Shown here piece after piece: positions 185 to 60,395 of a stretch of 60,395 nucleotides of DNA. The notes under the pieces are model-generated. The model worked only from the letters and a program-made list of their open reading frames with translations, was not told where the DNA came from and did not search any database. Position 1 is the first letter of the stretch. Each line of letters opens with the position of its first letter. This DNA comes from Methanosaeta sp. PtaB.Bin039 (GTDB taxonomy: Archaea; Halobacteriota; Methanosarcinia; Methanotrichales; Methanotrichaceae), in the NCBI GenBank assembly GCA_002067795.1, contig MVQI01000053.1:1-60395 (forward strand), read 5' to 3'. The position numbers were made by a program, and so were the translations under genes.

Positions 185-1066
185 ATGAGATCAATCCATT
201 CTTACGGCGTTCTCATACTGACGCTGACGATCTTCCTGATATCTCCTGCCTGCGCAGATGCGGCGCCAGGATCTTTCAAGATCGTCTGCACCACCAGCGT
301 ATTGATGGACCCGGCGACCAGCATCGGCGGGGATAGGGTGACGGCTATCTCCATTGCCGATCCGACCCTCTGTCCTCATCTTCAATCCGACATAATCCCC
401 ACCCGCATTCAGCTCAATATGGATTTCATAAAAGACGCAAACCTGTTCCTGGCATATAACGACAGCAACGACCGAAGATATAACATGCCTGCTGTTAATG
501 ACTTTATGAAAGCCAACAACTACGGCACGGCTTCTTGGACGACCGTATCAGATTCGTCCAGAGGGTGGAACACGCCTGCCAGTGCCAAGCTCCTGGCCGA
601 AGAGGTGAAGGGATGGTTGGTGGAGAGGGACCCTGCAAACGAGACATATTATCAACAGCGGTACGACGAGTACGTAACAAACCTGGATGCCTTATCGCCC
701 GGCGAAGATGAGTTGAAGAAGCTCAATCAGACTAAGGTCGTGGTGATGCTCTGGCAGAAGGAGCCTGTGGAGAACTGGCTGGGCATGAACGTGGTCAATT
801 TCTTCGCGCCTGAGTTTGCCATGAACGGGACCAAGACCCCTGCCAAGGTGGTCGATGACATCAACGCCCACCCTGACAAATACGCGAATGTGACCTATAT
901 CATCGAGAACATGCAGTCAGGAGAGCTTGCCAAAGGCATCGAAGAGGCGCTCAGGGACCGGGGCATCGAAGCAAAGAGGGTCGTCTTCACCAACTTCCCT
1001 GGCTCTCTTCCTGGCGTCGATACAATGGCCGATGTGCTGGAATATAACAGGCAGCTGGTGCTTTGA
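185..1066 (+). CDS. Secreted ZnuA/TroA-like metal-binding protein
   Basis: A 293-residue protein with an N-terminal signal peptide (about residues 1-26, hydrophobic 8-21). The mature start SFKIVCTTSVLMDPATSIGGDRV matches the N-lobe of TroA/ZnuA cluster A-I substrate-binding proteins, and H65 in DPTLCPHLQSD is at the place of the first metal ligand. The other ligand histidines of ZnuA are not evident (only three His in all), so the ligand or metal may differ. Several N-x-S/T sites suggest an exported glycoprotein. No permease or ATPase gene is next to it. The start ATG follows an AT-rich promoter-like stretch (about 150-170). Confidence 0.6.
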   Translation: MRSIHSYGVLILTLTIFLISPACADAAPGSFKIVCTTSVLMDPATSIGGDRVTAISIADPTLCPHLQSDIIPTRIQLNMDFIKDANLFLAYNDSNDRRYNMPAVNDFMKANNYGTASWTTVSDSSRGWNTPASAKLLAEEVKGWLVERDPANETYYQQRYDEYVTNLDALSPGEDELKKLNQTKVVVMLWQKEPVENWLGMNVVNFFAPEFAMNGTKTPAKVVDDINAHPDKYANVTYIIENMQSGELAKGIEEALRDRGIEAKRVVFTNFPGSLPGVDTMADVLEYNRQLVL

Positions 1067-1355
1067 TCCGCTGCCCATCCCAACGAATGGACTCAAATCT
1101 TGGACCGGCCGACCAGATATCGAGGCTCTCCAACTGGTGCAAGAGAGCCCGCCCGGGGGAGGAAACGACCCCGCGCTGATGCAAATCCGCTGCGGCCTCC
1201 ATTTCAGCCGGATAGGTGGCTTTTTTTCCGGCATCGAAGTATCAATCTCGAGTTGGGGCAGCCATATTGAAGGAGCTGGCGTTAAATAGACAGATGCAAG
1301 AATCAGTGACGGAGCCACGAGATTATTTAAGAAAGCCTTGACCACAGAGACGGCT

Positions 1356-1844
1356 ATGACCAATATATTCTTTTACGATACCGAGATCGGCAGACTGGGG
1401 ATAGCCGAAGGCGGTGGTGCAATCACAAACCTGTATCTTTCGGGAGACGCTGTGCCTGCTGATGCAGTGGTATGCGAGACCGAGCTGCTGAGAGAGGCTG
1501 GCGAACAGCTCTTGAGCTATTTCTCAGGAGGGCGCAGAAATTTCACAATCCCACTGTCTCCAGATGGCACGCAGTTCATGCAGAGCGTCTGGATGGAGCT
1601 GAGGAAGATCCCCTATGGACAGACCCGGAGCTATCAGGAGGTTGCCAGAAGGATGGGCAATAAAGATGCGTCAAGGGCTGTTGGCCAGGCCTGCAAGAGA
1701 AATCCGATCCCCATCTTCATCCACTGCCACCGGGTAATCGGCGCAGATGGAAGGACGACCGGCTATCGTGGCGGGATTCATATCAAGACGCGTCTGCTGG
1801 AATTGGAGAAAAGGGATGGAGATCTTCGAGTACGGCGAGCGTGA
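1356..1844 (+). CDS. ogt: Methylated-DNA--[protein]-cysteine S-methyltransferase (MGMT)
   Basis: This suicide repair protein moves the alkyl group from O6-alkylguanine to its own cysteine. The C-terminal half has the MGMT fold signature: FMQSVWMELRKIPYGQTRSYQEVARRMG, the ASRAVGQACKRNPIPI helix region, and the active-site stretch IFIHCHRVIG with acceptor Cys at residue 124 and GYRGG after it. The near-invariant Pro before the Cys (PCHR) is replaced by His (HCHR). I chose ATG 1356 over an upstream TTG at 1338 because the TATA-like ATTATTTA at about 1322-1329 would place transcription start near 1350. It overlaps the next gene by 29 bases, forming an alkylation-repair operon. Confidence 0.85.
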   Translation: MTNIFFYDTEIGRLGIAEGGGAITNLYLSGDAVPADAVVCETELLREAGEQLLSYFSGGRRNFTIPLSPDGTQFMQSVWMELRKIPYGQTRSYQEVARRMGNKDASRAVGQACKRNPIPIFIHCHRVIGADGRTTGYRGGIHIKTRLLELEKRDGDLRVRRA

Positions 1845-50181: not shown

Positions 50182-50747
50182 AATTGCAGAGATAGACACC
50201 ACCTGGCGCCTTCTGGCGCGGGCTCTTCTCTGGCCTGGGGGCACACAGAAAACCTGACCGTACAGGTGATGGCTGGAAAGGCAAATATCGACCGTCCATT
50301 GACTTTTAGCAGTGATCCCACTGCCGGCCAGCCTGATATGAAGTCGCCAAGAGGGGCCTGATCGGATCCTGGCAGGGTGGAGAGACGGACCGAACCGTTC
50401 CCAGGCAGCATCCTATCGCATTCGAATTCGACCGAATCCGACAGCCTGCTGGCTTCGGTGCGGCCGAGCCATGCAGATGTCTGACAATATTGCCGGTCAT
50501 TATGAAAAACGCAGATTCAGCAGGCAAAAACTTCATATAAAGTAAGAACTATCAGAATTCCTCGGGGTTTCTTTCAGAAACAGGTGTGGATTTGAGATGT
50601 GGACCGAATGCGAAATGTTGGCGTGCGGCTGCAATGAGCAGCCTCCATTGAGGATTTTCAGACGTTTGGGCCTTTCGGATGACGGAGCCTGCCGGGTCGC
50701 AAGACGGCTTTGGGGGGCTTTTCTCCAGCGGTGGTGAGCAGACGGCC
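50182..50747. other. Gap before the first DNA-binding paralogue
   Basis: A TATA-like CATATAAAGT near 50534-50543 could start a leader of about 190 bases for the gene at 50748. No other coding frame is supported. Confidence 0.4.
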
Positions 50748-51275
50748 ATGACAATCCGGCTGCCTCTGGCAATCACGAACCCGCCCGCTTCCGCATCAAA
50801 TAGGGCCAAATACAGAAAGGCACTCAACGAGCTCTACCGCCTCACAGATGAGACGGAACATCTGCTGTTCAGGATCGGGTCTCTTGAAGAGCAAAGGACC
50901 TCAGAGGCAATAACGTCGGAAGATGGGGTCCTGGGGCGCGGCAGGCTGGACGAGCATCTGCAGTGGGCCATGGGAGACCTCTCGGAGATCATCCATCAGC
51001 TCTGCCTGGAGGTCAGCCTGATCTCAGAGAGGATGAGCGCCTTTGAGGAGAAGAGGAGGGCGGCGCATGGCAGGATGATGATCTGCAGGAGACAGGAGCT
51101 TGAGCAGATACTGAGAAGATGCGGCGGATCTCTGTCCTTTCGGGAGCTGCAAAGCGAGATGAAGCTAAGCCCCTCGCAGTTCACGAGAGTGGTAAATAGC
51201 CTGGATAAGGGGACTTTCGAGGTCAGGAGGTGCCCCGGCGCGAAGAGAGGAGAGAAGATGGTGGTGCTGAAGTGA
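50748..51275 (+). CDS. Coiled-coil protein with C-terminal winged-helix-like domain, copy 1
   Basis: A 175-residue protein. Residues about 15-115 are predicted long helices (KALNELYRLTDETEHLLFRIGSLEEQ, LQWAMGDLSEIIHQLCLEVSLISERMSAFEEKRRAAHGRMM) and 115-175 resemble a winged helix: ELEQILRRCGGSLSFRELQSEMKLSPSQFTRVVNSLDKGTFEVRRCPGAKRGEKMVVLK. GGTGAG at 50733-50738 selects ATG 50748 over ATG 50679. It is GC-rich like most of the window and is a paralogue of the AT-rich gene at 51525. A DNA-binding regulator role is inferred. Confidence 0.65.
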   Translation: MTIRLPLAITNPPASASNRAKYRKALNELYRLTDETEHLLFRIGSLEEQRTSEAITSEDGVLGRGRLDEHLQWAMGDLSEIIHQLCLEVSLISERMSAFEEKRRAAHGRMMICRRQELEQILRRCGGSLSFRELQSEMKLSPSQFTRVVNSLDKGTFEVRRCPGAKRGEKMVVLK

Positions 51276-51524: not shown

Positions 51525-52172
51525 TTGCCTGAAAAACGGAAACGCACATTTGGTTTAAATGTAGGGCACCGATTAAAAAAAGCACGCGGAACAAAGAGGC
51601 CGGTTTCATCTCGCCCAATCAGAGAATGCGAACGTCGCGAAAAGCTTTCTCAAGCATCAGCTAGACTGCAAATCGAGGAGGCAATTGAGCATGTGAACTC
51701 AATAAAGAGCCAACTCCATCAAGAAATCCATAACTTAAAATTAAAGAATCGGCTGCTGATGGACAGAATTGATGGATTGGAGAGGCGTATTGAACGCCGC
51801 TTGGAAGAAGCATCTGCTAAGAATGAGCATGAAGATACTATCGCCTTTAATGGAGAAATGAATTCTTCATTTGCACTCTCAGCCAAGTTATCCGAACTGG
51901 ATGAAAAGATCAATCAACTCACGCAAAAGATCGTTGAGATTGAGGATAAGAACGCAAAAATTCAGGGAAAGAAGACAAGTCTTAGGATCTCAAAGATTGA
52001 GGATATCTTGAAGGAGAGTGGGGGCTCCCAATCGTTCAAGCAGCTTCAGAGCGACTTGGGACTCAGTCCATCTCAGTTCACATATCTTCTGAGGCGCCTT
52101 GATACTCGTTACATTGAAGTCAAGAGATGCCCGGGCTCTCAAAGAGGTGAGAAGATGCTGATTCTGAAGTAA
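51525..52172 (+). CDS. Coiled-coil protein with C-terminal winged-helix-like domain, copy 2
   Basis: A 215-residue protein with a basic N-terminus (KRKRTFGLNVGHRLKKARGTKR), a long heptad-rich coiled coil (about 40-150) and a C-terminal domain, RISKIEDILKESGGSQSFKQLQSDLGLSPSQFTYLLRRLDTRYIEVKRCPGSQRGEKMLILK. The last 60 residues match copy 1 (50748-51275) almost position for position. TTG 51525 has AGGGGTG at 51511-51517. It is AT-rich like the peptide operon that begins 300 bases downstream, so it may be that operon's regulator. Partial sequence identity with copy 1 is clear; function is inference. Confidence 0.65.
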   Translation: MPEKRKRTFGLNVGHRLKKARGTKRPVSSRPIRECERREKLSQASARLQIEEAIEHVNSIKSQLHQEIHNLKLKNRLLMDRIDGLERRIERRLEEASAKNEHEDTIAFNGEMNSSFALSAKLSELDEKINQLTQKIVEIEDKNAKIQGKKTSLRISKIEDILKESGGSQSFKQLQSDLGLSPSQFTYLLRRLDTRYIEVKRCPGSQRGEKMLILK

Positions 52173-52329
52173 ATGATCGCAATTCAGCCATAAATATGCA
52201 GTCTTCTAAGCTTAATCGTTACAGATAGCACTCATACTAGATTTCAGATAGAAAAACATGTTTTAATTTAAGAAGAGCAAAATTCATTTTTTTAAAAGTA
52301 TTATAAATCACAAAGAAGGCTTATTCGTT

Positions 52330-52357
52330 TTAAATACTTAACAAATACAGTATTTAA
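52330..52357 (+). promoter_or_regulatory. Distal inverted repeat upstream of the peptide gene
   Basis: TTAAATAC (52330-52337) and GTATTTAA (52350-52357) are perfect 8-base inverted arms with 12 bases between; the half-site centres are 20 bases apart. It lies 40 bases before the TATA box, a usual place for an activator. Confidence 0.5.
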
Positions 52358-52367
52358 CTAAAAAATC

Positions 52368-52404
52368 AAGTTTTCACTTTTTATTGAAAACTTAAATTTA
52401 TATA
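52368..52404 (+). promoter_or_regulatory. Proximal inverted repeat and TATA box of the peptide gene
   Basis: AAGTTTTC (52368-52375) and GAAAACTT (52386-52393) are perfect 8-base arms separated by 10 bases. They are followed three bases later by TTTATATA (52397-52404), the probable TATA box, giving transcription start near 52428. A protein here would touch the TFB site directly. Confidence 0.6.
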
Positions 52405-52429
52405 GGTTAATGATAATAGGTCATTTTGG

Positions 52430-52444
52430 CGAGGCTGAACCTCG
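52430..52444 (+). promoter_or_regulatory. Small 5'-leader hairpin
   Basis: CGAGG (52430-52434) and CCTCG (52440-52444) pair around CTGAA at the very start of the predicted leader, 14 bases before the ribosome-binding site GGAGAT (52458-52463). May stabilise the mRNA. Confidence 0.35.
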
Positions 52445-52471
52445 ACTAGCTAAAACAGGAGATGAAGGAAG

Positions 52472-52600
52472 ATGGAAGTATTCTATGGAGAAGGAGCAGA
52501 GGAGTCGGGACAGGAGGAAGAGATGGCTTGCTGCTTTACTGCATGTAAAGGTGGTGTATGGGTGGAAATACTAAGTTCAAGACCTGACTACACAGCGTGA
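52472..52600 (+). CDS. Cys-rich peptide, candidate RiPP precursor (42 residues)
   Basis: The gene is too short for ordinary gene finding. It has GGAGAT at good spacing before the ATG and its own TATA box. The peptide begins MEVFYGEGAEESGQEEEM, an acidic leader-like part with eight Asp/Glu, and continues ACCFTACKGGVWVEIL then SSRPDYTA. Cys at 20, 21 and 25 sit in a CCxxxC core, with GG at 27-28 as a possible cleavage site. It is followed by a hairpin and then two radical SAM/SPASM genes and an exporter. By family precedent (sactipeptides, ranthipeptides, Cys-rich CcpM-type peptides) the Cys would form thioether bonds. The role is inferred from context; no homologue was checked. Confidence 0.6.
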   Translation: MEVFYGEGAEESGQEEEMACCFTACKGGVWVEILSSRPDYTA

Positions 52601-52619
52601 TAAGGCGTTGGCAGATGGG

Positions 52620-52657
52620 ACAATAGCACACCTAACCTAAGTTAGGCATGCTATTGT
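52620..52657 (+). terminator. Stem-loop between the peptide gene and the maturases
   Basis: ACAATAGCA (52620-52628) pairs perfectly with TGCTATTGT (52649-52657), and within it CCTAAC (52631-52636) pairs with GTTAGG (52641-52646) around CTAA. The position, just after a high-demand small gene and before enzymes needed in less amount, is typical of partial terminators or mRNA-stability elements in RiPP operons. Confidence 0.6.
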
Positions 52658-52823
52658 TCCTATTTATATTTCGAACTATGAATCCGACAAACGATAGTTC
52701 AAGTGCAGTCACTGTTGATATTCGGTTTGGAAGGAACTATTAGCAGGAATAATATTGAACCAGAGACTGCGAATTCTGCAGCAACGATGAGAAGTAATAA
52801 TATAAAATGTGGTGGTATATCAG

Positions 52824-54299
52824 ATGATTGAATTTAGAACAAAAAACGGAAACATGTATGCATGGGACAATGAAGTAGGACTCTTCATTCCATTCTCGCA
52901 TGCAATGAGGGGAGTTCTGAACAAAATCTCTAACCATAATCCCCCATCAAGAGAAGAGGTTATCTGGCAATTGAAGAATGAATTTCCAGAAGAAGACGTT
53001 GAATTCTGCTATGATTGGCTAAATAAATGGAATAGAATAAAATTAAAAAAGCCAAACTACCCAGAGATTCACGATCCAGATAAAGGGGATATTGAGAAAT
53101 ATTTGTTGAAACGTGGCTTCACACAACTCCTATTGGGTGTGACTGAAGACTGCAATCTTCGATGTAAATATTGCATATATTCAGACTTCTACAAACATTC
53201 CCGCGGGTATTCAGAAAAATATATGAATTTCTTTACCGCAAAAAAGGCGATAGATAATTACTTTTCGTTGCTAGAGATGGGAAAAAGATTCAATCCACTT
53301 AGGAGGCCAACAATTGGCTTTTATGGAGGCGAACCGTTATTAAATTTCAAGTTAATTGAAAAATGTGTTAATTATATTGAACAAAATTACTATAAAACTA
53401 TGTTCGTAATGACCACGAATGGATGTTTATTGGACGAGGAGAAAGCAAAATGGCTTATGAAGCACGATTTCATGATAATCGTCAGCTTGGATGGACCTGA
53501 ACAAGAGCATAATAGAAATAGGATTTATGCAAATGGGAGAGGAACGTTCAAGGACATCATGAAGAATATCAGGCCAATTATGAAGGCCGATTACAAGAAG
53601 ATATACTCGTTGCCGGTTTATGATTGGAGAACCGATATTTTAAAGCAAGAAGAATTCTTCAATTTAAAAGACATACCTCAAACAATGGCCGTTTCTCAAG
53701 TTAGCGATTATGCGGGATCTGAGTATTATGATCAGTTCACTGAAGAGGATCGTGTAGCTCATTTTAGCAAGATAGAGGAGGGAAAAATTCAATACTACCA
53801 GAATTTGGATCACCATAGATTTAAGGAAAAGAATACGCCATTTGATGCATTATTTGGAACCGCGCCTGGAAACGAGCTTTTTGGGAGCATATCTATTTTC
53901 CATTCTGATCCGATAAGGCCGTTCACCAGCGCATGCATTCCCGGGACAAAGATATTCGTAGATGTTGACGGGATATATCATTTATGCGAAAGAGTTCCAT
54001 ATTCATTCCCAATTGGGAATGTCGATGAAGGATTAAATTTGGATAAAATAATTAAATTAATAATCAACTATAATAAAGCTATGAATAAATGCGAAGAATG
54101 CAAAGTTAGCAGAAAATGCAATTTTTGCTACCAAATGTTTATGACTGATTGTACAATATCCAATTCGTCAGAAGTTTGTAATGAGATCGAAACTCTGAGG
54201 AAGAACTCGTTCTCCAGTGCGTTTTCAATAGCTGAAAAATTCCCGGATTTTATCGAAAATAGCAATCCGAGGCATATGAATATAAAAAAATATAGGTGA
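52824..54299 (+). CDS. Radical SAM/SPASM peptide maturase 1
   Basis: A 491-residue enzyme. The N-terminal 95 residues form a domain like that of QhpD/CcpM-type maturases (a possible peptide-recognition part, including FRTKNGNMYAWDNEVGLFIPFS). The SAM cluster is C110xxxC114xxC117 (DCNLRCKYC), followed by FYGGEPLLNF and TTNGCLL. The C-terminal SPASM region holds ACIPGTKIFVDVDGIYHLCERV, CEECKVSRKCNFCYQMFMTDC and EVCNE for two auxiliary clusters. GGTGGT at 52811-52816 selects ATG 52824; a GTG at 52809 is less likely. Low GC, as in the whole operon. Such enzymes form Cys-derived thioether links in peptides; the substrate is inferred to be the 52472 peptide. Confidence 0.85.
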   Translation: MIEFRTKNGNMYAWDNEVGLFIPFSHAMRGVLNKISNHNPPSREEVIWQLKNEFPEEDVEFCYDWLNKWNRIKLKKPNYPEIHDPDKGDIEKYLLKRGFTQLLLGVTEDCNLRCKYCIYSDFYKHSRGYSEKYMNFFTAKKAIDNYFSLLEMGKRFNPLRRPTIGFYGGEPLLNFKLIEKCVNYIEQNYYKTMFVMTTNGCLLDEEKAKWLMKHDFMIIVSLDGPEQEHNRNRIYANGRGTFKDIMKNIRPIMKADYKKIYSLPVYDWRTDILKQEEFFNLKDIPQTMAVSQVSDYAGSEYYDQFTEEDRVAHFSKIEEGKIQYYQNLDHHRFKEKNTPFDALFGTAPGNELFGSISIFHSDPIRPFTSACIPGTKIFVDVDGIYHLCERVPYSFPIGNVDEGLNLDKIIKLIINYNKAMNKCEECKVSRKCNFCYQMFMTDCTISNSSEVCNEIETLRKNSFSSAFSIAEKFPDFIENSNPRHMNIKKYR

Positions 54300-54304
54300 T
54301 TCTA

Positions 54305-55450
54305 ATGTATTTTAGATTGAATCCAGAATGTTATTTAATAAAAGGGAGAAAATTAGGCGCAATCTTCGACTTAATAGATGGAACGACATATGCTTTGGAT
54401 CATGGAGAGACCGAATTAATAAATAATTGTGAGAATAATATTCAGATAGACAAAGATAACGATACGCTAAAAGAGCTTAAATGTATTCGATTGGGGAATT
54501 TTTATGACAATAAAATATATGTACCAAAGCTGAAAGTCGGCTCTCCTTTTGTCAAAGATGACCCGCTTGTTCCACTCTATCCACCAGAGATTCATAGAGC
54601 TTTTCTGGAAATAAACAATTCATGTGATAGAGAATGCTGGTATTGCGGATATCACGGAGTTAAGAGGAGCCTAGGATGCATGGGATGCAATAAATGGGAG
54701 AATAACGACGAGCCTTTAGGTATTGAGCGTTGGAGAGAAGCCATCAACGAGTTGGAAGACTTGGATTGTCGTGAAATCATTATTACAGGCGGAGATCTGG
54801 CGCTGGCTTGGGATAAGACCGTAGAGATTTTGAACCATGCTGTTGGGAGATTTAGACAGATATATCTGATAATGCATCAAGAGAGCCTATCCTCTGAAAA
54901 AATGGATCACCTGGAAGATAAGGCAACATTGATAGTTCAAACAGAGAGACCGGATTCCACCAAATCAAATCACCTGAGATACTTGGTAGTGGTTAAATCA
55001 AATGAACATAAATCAAAAATAAAAGAGGACAATACAATTTACGATTATATTATTGCAGAAGAGAATTCAATCTCAAAAGAACATCCGCTTACGTCTAAGA
55101 AGAAGCTATCTGGTGTTAATATGTTTAAATTTTTAAGTCATGTTGAATATCATCCCTGCTTAGGCCATTCTTTGACGATCTGCAACAATGGAGATGTCAC
55201 TCCATGTCCCATGATGAGGAATCATTGCTTCGGCAATATAAGAGATAAGCCGCTGTATTCCATATTTGAAGATAGCTGGGAGAGGATAAACCAGTTTTGG
55301 AAATTGAATTTGGATAGGATTGAGAAGTGCACAGGCTGCGAGTTCAGATACTCTTGCTCAGATTGCAGGGCTTTGGAAGAGAGACTGACCGGTAAGATAG
55401 ACGGCAAGGCTCTCTGCAACTACAACCCAAGAGAAGGAATATGGACATGA
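54305..55450 (+). CDS. Radical SAM/SPASM peptide maturase 2
   Basis: A 381-residue radical SAM protein distinct from maturase 1. The SAM cluster is C107xxxC111xxC114 (SCDRECWYC), followed by CMGC at 125-128. The usual GGEP is GGDL (ITGGDLALAW). The C-terminal SPASM has CLGHSLTICNNGDVTPCPMMRNHCFGN, CTGCEFRYSCSDCRALEE and CNYNPREGIW, wording seen in peptide-maturase SPASM domains. The first 90 residues, hydrophobic beta type with MYFRLNPECYLIKGRKLGAIFDLIDGTTYAL, resemble a substrate-binding domain. AGGTGA overlaps the upstream stop, so the two are coupled. It may make a second modification or act in series. Confidence 0.85.
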   Translation: MYFRLNPECYLIKGRKLGAIFDLIDGTTYALDHGETELINNCENNIQIDKDNDTLKELKCIRLGNFYDNKIYVPKLKVGSPFVKDDPLVPLYPPEIHRAFLEINNSCDRECWYCGYHGVKRSLGCMGCNKWENNDEPLGIERWREAINELEDLDCREIIITGGDLALAWDKTVEILNHAVGRFRQIYLIMHQESLSSEKMDHLEDKATLIVQTERPDSTKSNHLRYLVVVKSNEHKSKIKEDNTIYDYIIAEENSISKEHPLTSKKKLSGVNMFKFLSHVEYHPCLGHSLTICNNGDVTPCPMMRNHCFGNIRDKPLYSIFEDSWERINQFWKLNLDRIEKCTGCEFRYSCSDCRALEERLTGKIDGKALCNYNPREGIWT

Positions 55451-57075
55451 TCGACTATGGCGCCAAGATTTTCTTTAAGAGATTTATTAGACCTCGTGCA
55501 GTCACCATAGGAATTTTGGCTGCCCTGAGCTTTGTGGGTGCCTCCTTCTCATTCATAATACCGCTATTTACAAAATCCCTGGTAGATGACGTCTTTCTAG
55601 GCGGAAGAAGTGAGTTGTTTTACCGCATCTTGGTAGGAACCGCATGTTTATACATTGTATCGGCACTTTCATCATATTTCTCCAGCTTAAAGAAGAGGGA
55701 ACTGGATCTCTTGTTATTCAATGATGTTGCAAGAGAGGCTTTTAATTCAATTCAACTCGCAGAAATAAAGAAGACTCAGGAAATAAAAATAGGGGATATG
55801 ATAAGCCGCATCATGACCAATACTAGATCGGCCATATCGATGTTCACGTTTATACTTCCTGAATTTGCGGTCATCATTGTACGCATAATAGTCCCCCTCG
55901 TTATAATGTTCCTGCTGCACTTTTGGCTCACCTGGGCCATAGTTATACCTTCCATGCTCTTCATAATTCCAACCCTCTTCTTTGGGAGAAGGCTTGAGAT
56001 AACACAAAAAGCATCTTTGGTCAAGAATGCGTCCGTGCATTCATTTTTAAAGGAGGCCCTCTCTATGATGCCGCTGATAAAGGCCTTTGGACTTGAAAGG
56101 TGGTCAGACAACAAATTTAATGAAAGAATGAGGGATTACTATGATGCATCCATCGACCACTCAAGGAATTCATCTCTGAATGGCTCGATAAACTCCCTGA
56201 TGTACGGGGTGCCCGTGATTCTCCTAATCCTTTTTGGCGGTCCGATGGTTATTCAGGATTCTTTGAGCATAGGGACATTTGCGGCATTCATGAGCTATGT
56301 AGCCCTGGTCTTCGGCCCGATGGCGCAATTGGCCTATCTATGGTCATATTACAAGATCTCATCCCCAGCACTGGATAGGGTCAACGAGCTATTTCAGCTA
56401 GAGCAAGAGAAGGTGGGCGAAGAGCATCTGGTCTTAAGTAATGGAGTGATCACCTTTAATGATATATGGTTCTCCTATGATAATAGACCAATTCTTAAAG
56501 GATTTAATGCTACATTTACAAAAGGATTGAACTACGTGATTGGAGATAATGGTGCTGGGAAATCTACCATATTGAAACTGCTCTGCTCTCTTTACTCGTC
56601 GGACAAAGGAAGAATTATCATTGATGGCCATGACTTATCAAATGTGAAGACGGAAGATATAAGGAGAAATGTATCAATGATATTCTCGAACCCCTACATT
56701 TTTGACGGTTCAATCTATGAGAATATCCATATCGGAGACCTCTCCGCATCTAGAGAGGAGGTAATTCGAGCTGCTGAGAAAGTGAAAGCGCATGAGTTTA
56801 TTATGAAATTGCCAAATGGGTATGAGACCCAGGTCGGAGAGAGTGGGCTCAAGCTATCAAGTGGCGAAAGGCAAAAAATTGCCCTAGCCAGAGGCATATT
56901 GAAGGACTCTGCCATAATTCTTCTGGATGAGGTTACGAAGTCAGTTGATATTGACTCGAGAAAGGCTATCCATGAAGCTATAGGGCATATGAAGGATGAT
57001 AAGACAATTTTGATCATTACTCATGACCCAAAAGAAATCGCCTATGGCAGCAATATAATCCATTTAAGACAATGA
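55441..57075 (+). CDS. ABC exporter (fused membrane and ATPase domains), peptide type
   Basis: A 544-residue half-transporter. The N-terminal part has six hydrophobic segments (about 18-300) with no cysteine peptidase domain. The ATPase (about 330-544) carries GDNGAGKST (Walker A), FSNPYIFDGSIYENI, the signature LSSGERQKIALARG, IILLDEVTKSVD (Walker B) and ITHD. The D-loop SVD replaces the usual SALD. It overlaps maturase 2 by 10 bases. As a homodimer it most likely exports the modified peptide; since the peptidase domain is absent, another protease must cut the leader. Confidence 0.9.
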   Translation: MDMIDYGAKIFFKRFIRPRAVTIGILAALSFVGASFSFIIPLFTKSLVDDVFLGGRSELFYRILVGTACLYIVSALSSYFSSLKKRELDLLLFNDVAREAFNSIQLAEIKKTQEIKIGDMISRIMTNTRSAISMFTFILPEFAVIIVRIIVPLVIMFLLHFWLTWAIVIPSMLFIIPTLFFGRRLEITQKASLVKNASVHSFLKEALSMMPLIKAFGLERWSDNKFNERMRDYYDASIDHSRNSSLNGSINSLMYGVPVILLILFGGPMVIQDSLSIGTFAAFMSYVALVFGPMAQLAYLWSYYKISSPALDRVNELFQLEQEKVGEEHLVLSNGVITFNDIWFSYDNRPILKGFNATFTKGLNYVIGDNGAGKSTILKLLCSLYSSDKGRIIIDGHDLSNVKTEDIRRNVSMIFSNPYIFDGSIYENIHIGDLSASREEVIRAAEKVKAHEFIMKLPNGYETQVGESGLKLSSGERQKIALARGILKDSAIILLDEVTKSVDIDSRKAIHEAIGHMKDDKTILIITHDPKEIAYGSNIIHLRQ

Positions 57076-57152: not shown

Positions 57153-60100
57153 ATGATAGAGACAAAAATGATGACAAGTAACGTAACAAGAGAGCATATC
57201 GCCATCCTAGCATTACTCCTATTGTTCGCCATCCCGTTGGGTTCAGCATATAATGGCAATCAATATATATACAAATCATATAGGGGGCTTGAGTACCTGG
57301 GAGTGTACGATGCCTGGGACATAGGCTACACCGGCAAGGGTGTCAATGTAGCTGTGATAGACGAAAGCATAGATTTTGCCACCCCGGATTTGATTGGGAC
57401 CCAAGCTCGTGTCTCGAATAAGAGCTCTCCTTACTACGGCTGGCCTATAGTGATAGATACGTATTCTCTCAAACTCTATCAACAAAATAGAGACCATCCA
57501 CAGAATTCAATTGGCAATTGGTATCAATACGCAGACACCAAATCCACCGACGTTGGGTGGTGCATTGTAACAGGGTCAAGCAAGAGCGGCGTATATCATA
57601 TCGGAGATCACCCGGATAGCCGTCTATCTGATTTCTATGGTCAACCGGTAAAGGTCCTTGTAGCAGACGAGGAACGCCCCGGAGATTACGATACAGTCTA
57701 TGTGGATCTCAATTGCAATCACGACTTCAGAGACGATAAGCCATGTCGAAGAGGAGACGAGATCTCCTACTGGGACAGGGATGAAGACGGCTATCCAGAC
57801 GAGTCTGGGGGAATGGTATACTTCATTGCAGACGGCAAGACGCCTCTGCCGCTATCAAGACTTCTATATGACAAAGAAGCAAAGTTGCCAGGAAATGGAG
57901 AGCTTGTGGCATTCCATTATGCTACTGACTGTCATGGAACCGCGTGCGCCTCGATAATCGCGGCTCAAGGAAGGAACGTGCTGGGGATAGCCAAAGATGC
58001 GAGAGTTGTATCTGTAAAAAATATTCCCGGAGAGAACCAACATATTTTGGGTTTGCTTGCCTCGCTAGGCTATGATGGGATTGCAGATACCGGAGATGAG
58101 GCAAGCGTCTTGAGCGTTAGCAGCATGAATTCACAGATCCCTAACAAAGGGTCTGATGAGGTATCAGCCTTCTTCGAATATATAACCACCGTCATCTCTC
58201 CCAACACAACTATCGTCTATGCAAATGGAAACGACGGATCAGGGTATAGCACCTGTACCTCCCCGTCCGGCAAACATGTGATCAATGTAGGAGCAAGCTA
58301 CAACCTGTGGGTGAGCGGATCGACGTATCGAGATGATATAATCGCGTTCTCCTCACGCGGCCCCAACGCATTGGGGCAGCTCAAGCCTAATGTAATTGCT
58401 CCAGCAGAATCTATTCCAAAATCGTTGTCCTTGCTTAGAACTCTTGACGGCAGATCTGCCTGGAATGGATTTGGTGGCGGCACCAGTAGTGCTACTCCTC
58501 ATGTTGCTGCCGTCGTTGCTCTGATATACCAAGCTTATAAAGAGAAGAACGGCGTATTTCCCACATCTGAGAAAGCTAGAGATATTCTGATGTCCTCATC
58601 CACCGATATAGGCGAGGAGGTATTCGCTCAAGGATCTGGCATAATTAACGCCAAGCGAGCAGTGGAGATGGCTTCCGGCAATTATGGAGTTTTGGCCGAG
58701 CCTGCTTTGCTGGTCACAGATCCAGTCAAGGCAGGATCGGTCCTACAGTTCAATCTGACACTCACGGATTACTCCCATAAGCAAATCGAGATCGAGCCGC
58801 AGATATTGATCAATGAAAAGATCAACAAGGTTACACTTGAAACCTCAAATGAAAACCTGACATTCCAATTGCCCAACGATATTCTGGACTGCGATCTGCT
58901 CACCCTCTGCTCATACTACCCCAGACAAATAAGAAGCACCAGGTTATTAGATTTCGAGGGATATGATCTATGTCTGTACAACTGGAAAGACGAAAATCAT
59001 GATCTAGTTTTACAGGAAGACGAGCTTGAGATCATTGCCGGGACATTTGAGAAATGGGGTCTTGGGATCACTTCAGAGGCCAGGATGTCGCATCCAAAAG
59101 AGAGAACTGACGATGGAATTGTAGCCAGGCTGATGAAAAGAGGCGAAATACAAAGCGACATAGTAACTGTTGTAATTGAGACTTATAACTGGAAGCCATG
59201 GGATATAGTGGTATTCAATGATGGTGGCCGTGTGAATATCTCAATACCAACACCTAACGCCACCGGGATATATCAGGGAAAGCTGCAAGTGAAATCTGAT
59301 GGCCAAAAGCAAAGCATTCCGATCTCCTTTATGACCTACGGAGACGACCAGATCCGAATTAATGATACCCAAGACAGATACAAAAACGGTAAAATGTATG
59401 GAAGGTTTGAGGGCGACTGCGTTTCTGGATGGGATACCAGGTCTTATGCCGTGCACCATGATGGTGATGATCTGGCAACAATTGAGGTGGCCTGGGACGA
59501 CCCCAATTCGGATATCGATGTATTCATGTATGGAGAAGGAGAGTTCAACTCGTCTGATTTCTGGAAGTATCCGGCAAGACCGCCGGTAGGTCTTCCCGCA
59601 TTGAAGATCTGGAAAGAGAACGGGCATAGCAGAAGGATGGTTGGATTTGCGGCAGTTGTTCGTGGCGATAAACAGATCGGCGGAAGCTACAGGACGTTTT
59701 ATACCTCCACCGGACAAAACAAGGAGATTATCACCTCTGAGATGACCGATGGACTTAATCTGATCGTCCTCGAAAAAGTGATAGATGGTGGAAACAAGTA
59801 CGGAGAGAATGTAACAATAAATCTAAGCTATACACAATCCCAAAATCTGACCCTCCAGGCAAGATCTGGCGAGATCATGGATATGCCTGAAGGAATCGAT
59901 GGCATAACGGGCTTTTCTCAAGGAGTGGAAGTCCAGGGTGAGGATTACCCTAAGGAGTTCCAGGCTGATAAGGATGACGTGATACTGATACAATCCGAAG
60001 AGAATCCTTACTGGCCCATGATAGTATTTGATTCCGATAACAATGGTAGCATGGAGTGGGATGGGCTTGGATTGAAAGATCTCGAGTCTGATGAAGACAG

Positions 60101-60395
60101 AATTGCAAATCCGGATGCCGACGAGCTGATATTCTCCGAGTACAGGCCAGTGATGAGGGCATATCCCAGCATGGATATGGTGAAGATCGCTGAACGCGGG
60201 ACCTATTTCCTCTTGAACTTCGGCAAATGCTACAGGTTCTATCATCTCAAAGCGACCGACCAGAGAGCGACAGGAGAGTCGATGAAGATCAAAGCACCAG
60301 AGCAGTCCGGGTCCTATCTGGGCATTGCTGAGAAGGACGGAATCCTGATCCCGGTTACAGTAAAGCTGCTGGTTGAGCCTGGAGATCCTGTATCC
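57153..60395 (+). CDS. Secreted subtilisin-like (S8) protease, 3' end beyond window
   Basis: The frame is open for 1081 codons to the window edge, so the C-terminus is missing. A signal peptide (IAILALLLLFAIPLGSA, about 16-32) leads to the S8 catalytic domain: D70 in GVNVAVIDESID, H261 in CHGTACASIIAA, S445 in GTSSATPHVAA and the oxyanion Asn in YANGNDG. About 190 residues separate D70 and H261, with an acidic Ca-binding-like insert (DLNCNHDFRDD, DRDEDGYPDESGG). Residues after about 500 form beta-rich domains. It lies 77 bases after the exporter. A leader-cleaving role is suggested by the operon and the export-only transporter, but a general surface protease is possible. Alternative starts are ATG 57168 and 57171. 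Confidence 0.85.
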   Translation, partial: MIETKMMTSNVTREHIAILALLLLFAIPLGSAYNGNQYIYKSYRGLEYLGVYDAWDIGYTGKGVNVAVIDESIDFATPDLIGTQARVSNKSSPYYGWPIVIDTYSLKLYQQNRDHPQNSIGNWYQYADTKSTDVGWCIVTGSSKSGVYHIGDHPDSRLSDFYGQPVKVLVADEERPGDYDTVYVDLNCNHDFRDDKPCRRGDEISYWDRDEDGYPDESGGMVYFIADGKTPLPLSRLLYDKEAKLPGNGELVAFHYATDCHGTACASIIAAQGRNVLGIAKDARVVSVKNIPGENQHILGLLASLGYDGIADTGDEASVLSVSSMNSQIPNKGSDEVSAFFEYITTVISPNTTIVYANGNDGSGYSTCTSPSGKHVINVGASYNLWVSGSTYRDDIIAFSSRGPNALGQLKPNVIAPAESIPKSLSLLRTLDGRSAWNGFGGGTSSATPHVAAVVALIYQAYKEKNGVFPTSEKARDILMSSSTDIGEEVFAQGSGIINAKRAVEMASGNYGVLAEPALLVTDPVKAGSVLQFNLTLTDYSHKQIEIEPQILINEKINKVTLETSNENLTFQLPNDILDCDLLTLCSYYPRQIRSTRLLDFEGYDLCLYNWKDENHDLVLQEDELEIIAGTFEKWGLGITSEARMSHPKERTDDGIVARLMKRGEIQSDIVTVVIETYNWKPWDIVVFNDGGRVNISIPTPNATGIYQGKLQVKSDGQKQSIPISFMTYGDDQIRINDTQDRYKNGKMYGRFEGDCVSGWDTRSYAVHHDGDDLATIEVAWDDPNSDIDVFMYGEGEFNSSDFWKYPARPPVGLPALKIWKENGHSRRMVGFAAVVRGDKQIGGSYRTFYTSTGQNKEIITSEMTDGLNLIVLEKVIDGGNKYGENVTINLSYTQSQNLTLQARSGEIMDMPEGIDGITGFSQGVEVQGEDYPKEFQADKDDVILIQSEENPYWPMIVFDSDNNGSMEWDGLGLKDLESDEDRIANPDADELIFSEYRPVMRAYPSMDMVKIAERGTYFLLNFGKCYRFYHLKATDQRATGESMKIKAPEQSGSYLGIAEKDGILIPVTVKLLVEPGDPVS

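Follow-up and report, generated by a model that had tools for sequence, protein, structure and literature searches.

Several described systems pair a radical SAM/SPASM enzyme with a small Cys-containing substrate. In CcpM systems (TIGR04068), a small precursor with a Cys cluster adjoins the maturase, CteB is the maturase of SCIFF ranthipeptides, and RumMC belongs to the sactipeptides (ruminococcin C). Sactipeptide hairpins have a core whose first half bears the Cys and whose second half is Cys-poor. QhpD, which takes part in quinohemoprotein amine dehydrogenase maturation, is a radical SAM/SPASM enzyme that acts on a Cys-containing small protein. Radical SAM RiPPs of archaea, and of Euryarchaeota, have already been predicted in surveys, among them one from 2025 that stresses the scarcity of known archaeal RiPP products and names only two lanthipeptides in its introduction (PMC12144867). 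Within a limited collection of papers, no description of an archaeal Cys-cluster family with two maturases was found, an absence that constitutes weak evidence, and nothing relevant was found on RiPPs of Methanothrix or Methanosaeta.

The stretch of DNA analysed here, referred to as the window, is an entire contig (C53; 60,395 nucleotides) of a 2.45-Mb genome from a Methanotrichaceae (Methanothrix-family) archaeon. It carries a short ORF, 52472-52600, that is very probably a RiPP precursor peptide gene, followed by genes for two radical SAM/SPASM proteins (rSAM1 and rSAM2), an exporter and a protease (Table 1). Judging from the kinship of its enzymes, the cassette would be a new archaeal variant of the thioether-type radical SAM RiPPs.

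Table 1. Features of the cassette in the window and of hairpin-associated genes in related loci.
Feature	Position	Strand	Remarks
Candidate regulator, second copy	50679..51275	+	
Candidate regulator	51525..52172	+	coiled-coil protein; conserved C-terminal helix-turn-helix-like domain
TATA-box-like element TTTATATA	52397..52404	+	~30 nt 5' of the hairpin; same AAATTTATATAGG in L032 and L033
5'-UTR hairpin (predicted)	52425..52450	+	5 bp, bulged A, 5 bp, small loop; compensatory changes
Precursor peptide gene (putative), 42 aa	52472..52600	+	ATG ORF; equivalent ORFs in L032-L037, L040, L041, L052, L055
Putative leader, residues ~1-19	52472-52528	+	
Putative Cys-cluster core, Cys20 onward	52529-52597	+	
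Intercistronic stem-loop (predicted)	52613..52665	+	precursor/maturase gap; partial terminator or stabiliser; z = -5.2
rSAM1, radical SAM/SPASM maturase 1	52824..54299	+	CcpM/CteB-like; RRE-like N-terminal b3a3 domain; CxxxCxxC at residues 110-117
rSAM2, radical SAM/SPASM protein 2	54305..55450	+	CxxxCxxC at 107-114; SPASM Cys; remote likeness to TIGR04193
ABC exporter, permease and ATPase fused	55441..57075	+	domains ABC_membrane, ABC_tran
Secreted subtilase (Peptidase_S8)	57153..60395	+	signal-peptide-like N-terminus; runs off contig end
PatG_D/PatG_C gene	L033:5322-6233	-	
PatG_D/PatG_C gene	L033:1708-2619	-	
PatG_D/PatG_C gene	L034 reverse complement 874-1785		

Related cassettes and their maturases

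Besides the window, nine archaeal maturase cassettes (L032-L037, L040, L041 and L052) were found together with a partial one (L055) that is cut by a contig end; L037, L040, L041, L052 and L055 were added by a scan of genome contigs. L032 is a second cassette of the same genome, L033 and L034 belong to G015, L035 to G012 and L036 to G027. Close to rSAM1, each cassette encodes a different small peptide with a Cys cluster, which has its first Cys between residues 16 and 27, and the order precursor, rSAM1, rSAM2, ABC, subtilase is common to the window, L032, L033 and L035. L037 and L040 have the ABC gene with no subtilase seen, and because the subtilase is absent from several cassettes (L034, L036 and L037), leader removal may differ in these. 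A precursor ORF together with a SPASM maturase that has an RRE-like region, as expected of radical SAM RiPPs in general, is borne out by gene order in 10 cassettes, a Radical_SAM domain match, the modelled b3a3 N-terminus and the full-length alignment to CteB. The proposal of a radical SAM-matured precursor in the first-pass annotation of this DNA thus agrees with the Cys-cluster ORF being kept beside the maturase across the archaeal cassettes. The distribution is patchy, with rSAM2 found at E below 1e-40 in only four of 238 genomes of the class. The L041 and L040 records are titled Candidatus Nanosynbacter and 'bacterium', and their rSAM1 proteins fall inside the archaeal clade, with L041 also having the archaeal hairpin; both are probably mis-binned contigs.

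The two cassettes of the window's own genome do not stem from a recent duplication, because the L032 maturase is sister to that of L035 in the tree. At its 3' end (window 51131-51275), the first regulator gene shares 99.3% identity with the opening 145 bases of contig C60 (L032:1-145), and beyond these C60 leads into the second cassette. The two cassettes may adjoin each other in the genome, a repeat having separated them during assembly. The subtilase genes of the window and L032 share ~66% identity overall and 85% over the contig's last 120 bases (60276-60395 vs L032:8047-8166), a stretch that may have undergone local conversion or may be a repeat at which assembly of the contig stopped.

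Archaeal rSAM1 proteins form a single clade (SH-aLRT 99) that lies beside CcpM-like enzymes from the bacterial groups Lachnospiraceae, TA06 and Acidobacteriota. CcpM-related bacterial loci also encode an rSAM2 homologue as a second SPASM-type protein (L049, E 4e-36; L058, 2e-38; L043, 7e-18; L044, 3e-16), and most have Cys-cluster ORFs upstream, so the pairing of rSAM1 with rSAM2 is old. Both enzymes of the window keep the CxxxCxxC motif, which is invariant across six homologues.

No NCBIfam model reaches its cut-off on rSAM1. CcpM gives the best match at 225 bits, under half of the cut-off of 500, and the archaeal enzymes differ from CcpM systems in forming a clade apart, in their precursors and in having a fused ABC exporter and, in many cassettes, a subtilase as well. 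RumMC comes second (180 bits; cut-off 720), and the archaeal cores resemble those of its sactipeptides in having Cys in the first half and few in the second, although the archaeal cassette encodes two radical SAM proteins. PapB (136 bits) and QhpD (TIGR03906, 124.5 bits) follow, and the SCIFF maturase model (TIGR03974) reaches 92.5 bits against a cut-off of 425; whereas SCIFF is recognised by six Cys in forty-five residues, archaeal precursors have 3-8 Cys at variable spacing, the window peptide three. In structure, however, the SCIFF maturase CteB is the closest solved relative of rSAM1. It was found by profile (5wgg, E 4e-28), as was TigE, and by fold (E 3e-16) in a full-length alignment that includes the RRE region, and the RRE-like N-terminal domain was modelled at pLDDT 60-89. 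The AlphaFold models as a whole were of middling (pLDDT 64) or low (47) confidence, the latter value belonging to rSAM2, for which a fold claim was dropped as too poorly based. The C-terminal two thirds of rSAM2 match the grasp-with-spasm SPASM protein (TIGR04193) at 96.8 bits, below the cut-off of 175, but rSAM2 keeps CxxxCxxC and the cassette lacks an ATP-grasp gene.

Peptide maturation and the likely chemistry of the Cys cluster

The window ORF translates to MEVFYGEGAEESGQEEEMACCFTACKGGVWVEILSSRPDYTA, with Cys at positions 20, 21 and 25, a GG motif (27-28) and one Trp (Trp30), as first annotated. The peptides of L032, L033 and L034 are MEEFSKANQDGGTPEACYCNWCSCSGGNAQSVFYGQDYQTNPSKYW, MEVFEGETVAGTGENAPAPCCLSCGCSGSLGYNQMNAQWNAGNW and MEVFKGEGYGISIETPAACDCRCYIRCKGSTYPNATAWQDWQAHLTQ, respectively. 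A leader beginning with MEVF or MEEF is found in L032-L035 and L052, while the window peptide and those of L032-L035 have C-x-G-[GS] after the last clustered Cys, so that four peptides (L032-L035) have both; the window peptide has three Cys vs four in its near relatives. Searches of the precursor peptides against Pfam and NCBIfam gave no match. Because the nearest members have C-x-G-[GS] past the last clustered Cys, the window GG, which also sits after the last Cys, is placed inside the core and not at the leader/core border. GG was considered as a leader cleavage site and rejected, since it lies past the Cys cluster and a domain search of the exporter found no C39 peptidase, only ABC_membrane and ABC_tran. 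On the same two grounds, the locus falls outside the double-glycine/C39-ABC systems.

We consider it highly probable that the ORF encodes a RiPP precursor with an RRE-held leader, a thioether core, ABC export, leader removal by the subtilase and control at the RNA level. The leader, comprising the N-terminal ~19 residues, would be held by the RRE-like domain of rSAM1, and the core CCFTACKGGVWVEILSSRPDYTA would be cross-linked at the clustered Cys, with rSAM2 serving as a partner or a second modifying enzyme. The product would exit via the ABC exporter, and the secreted subtilase would cut off the leader. The product is probably secreted and could serve as a peptide signal or a bacteriocin-like agent.

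Thioether cross-linking of the Cys cluster is likely by analogy, and carbon-linked thioethers (sactipeptide- or ranthipeptide-like) are the likeliest chemistry because the best solved relative of rSAM1 is CteB. The CxC-rich cores of L037, L040 and L055 resemble metal-binding sites, Trp and Tyr are frequent past the Cys, and radical SAM/SPASM enzymes have several chemistries. The Cys cluster could then bind metal or form disulfides while the radical SAM pair acts elsewhere, for example on a Trp/Tyr-rich C-terminus through cyclophane formation or epimerisation. We regard this as unlikely, given that the nearest enzymes by sequence and fold are thioether-forming ones (CteB; the RumMC and PapB models) and not cyclophane enzymes. 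The first-pass annotation had proposed, next to thioethers, links from Cys to acidic side chains of the QhpD type, and its two suggestions fared differently. The window core does offer two acceptors (Glu32 and Asp39), and the QhpD model matches rSAM1 remotely. Its score is nevertheless far under the cut-off of 453 and also under those of CcpM, RumMC and PapB, and the peptides of L033 and L052, with 4-5 Cys, contain no Asp or Glu from the first Cys on, which speaks against Asp/Glu acceptors. Joining of Cys to Asp or Glu as the general chemistry of the family is thus quite improbable, and thioethers continue to be the preferred reading.

Coding evidence for the short gene

Several observations indicate that 52472-52600 is a genuine short coding gene, as the first-pass annotation had proposed. 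When the 651-nt intergenic region was dinucleotide-shuffled 2000 times, an ATG ORF of 30-90 aa with three Cys within six residues arose in 0.2% of shuffles, and one that also had a motif resembling a ribosome-binding site arose in 0%; among tiles of the same size on both strands of the window, 1/184 held such an ORF. An AGGAG/GAAGGA stretch directly 5' of the ORF accounts for the strong ribosome-binding site noted earlier, and the frame is open in 9/9 of the other archaeal cassettes that keep the maturases, contrary to the interruption that the first-pass annotation had named as its refutation. One earlier statement needs correction. The leader was described as almost half Glu/Asp, and the actual figure is 7/19 positions (37%), all Glu. 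An acidic leader was also rejected as a family trait, as the leaders of the other cassettes are 6-27% acidic.

Selection was measured on the L032/L035 pair of precursors (46-47 aa), the window peptide having no close orthologue. Over 46 codons the two differ by 5/7/23 at codon positions 1/2/3, with dN at 0.14 and dS saturated, which indicates that this pair is under protein-level selection. The kinship of the two peptides agrees with that of their sister maturases. These data also bear on whether the ORF might be a regulatory leader peptide (attenuator) of the maturase operon, as a strong stem-loop between a short ORF and the enzyme genes could suggest. That reading is very improbable: leader and core amino acids are conserved while third positions are saturated, the Cys cluster persists as the remainder diverges, and attenuation cannot work in L036, where the ORF and rSAM1 are divergently oriented. 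A chance ORF, which the length of merely 42 aa and the missing family model match might invite, has a negligible probability in view of the shuffles and of the equivalents in all other archaeal cassettes.

RNA elements and candidate regulators

The precursor mRNA leaders share a hairpin with the consensus UUUGG-CGRGG-loop-CCYCG-A-CUAAA. In its alignment, 91% of cells are paired and four pairs have changed on both sides, and the covariation score was matched by 1/500 shuffles, a control of eight distinct rows in which relatedness is left. The hairpin matches no known family over 51800-52900, because Rfam at a permissive threshold gave sub-threshold chance matches only. The exact hairpin pattern was rejected as evidence since its out-of-cassette matches in 61 genomes were no rarer than those of a reversed-pattern control, and thus the covariance model alone was used. 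In the window's own genome this model matches only the two precursor leaders, and in G015 it matches two precursors and three PatG_D/PatG_C genes. Most of its matches are rows of the model or their copies, the independent find being in G020; weak matches in G023, G030 and G028 look like chance.

PatG_D and PatG_C are cyanobactin protease-associated domains. The three G015 genes are near-identical, encode 303-aa proteins with a Cys-rich N-terminus and each lie 3' of the same hairpin within one 30-kb region. At L134:1470-1760 (G020, contig C29), a joint located by the gene-blind covariance model, the TATA box and hairpin are fused directly to the C-terminal end of a window-like ABC ATPase, which is probably the scar of a deleted cassette. 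The precursor leaders of the other archaeal branch (L040:419-470 and L055:2032-2083) carry a different conserved element, CGCGGUG..CUCCCCAUCGCG..GGGAG, that could form a hairpin plus pseudoknot.

A strong stem-loop lies between precursor and rSAM1 in 7/7 loci, with unrelated sequences and z between -3.7 and -6.6 in the six besides the window. It fits an element that would keep precursor mRNA above enzyme mRNA, and together with the 5'-UTR hairpin it would control the precursor mRNA such that precursor is made in excess over the enzymes. Homologues of the 51525-52172 regulator adjoin the L032, L033 and L034 cassettes, and few other genomes have one. We tentatively suggest, as a possible reading, that in these archaeal RiPPs with paired SPASM maturases the precursor genes and, in one genome, the PatG_D/PatG_C genes form a small regulon marked by an undescribed bulged-A 5'-UTR hairpin that the adjacent coiled-coil/HTH-like protein probably recognises.

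Searches based on the common 5' hairpin could bring up more members of the family, whose 42-aa peptide gene in the window is short enough for common length cut-offs to miss. Ultimately, this Methanothrix-family cassette, with its precursor, two maturases, exporter and protease, is ready for heterologous expression.
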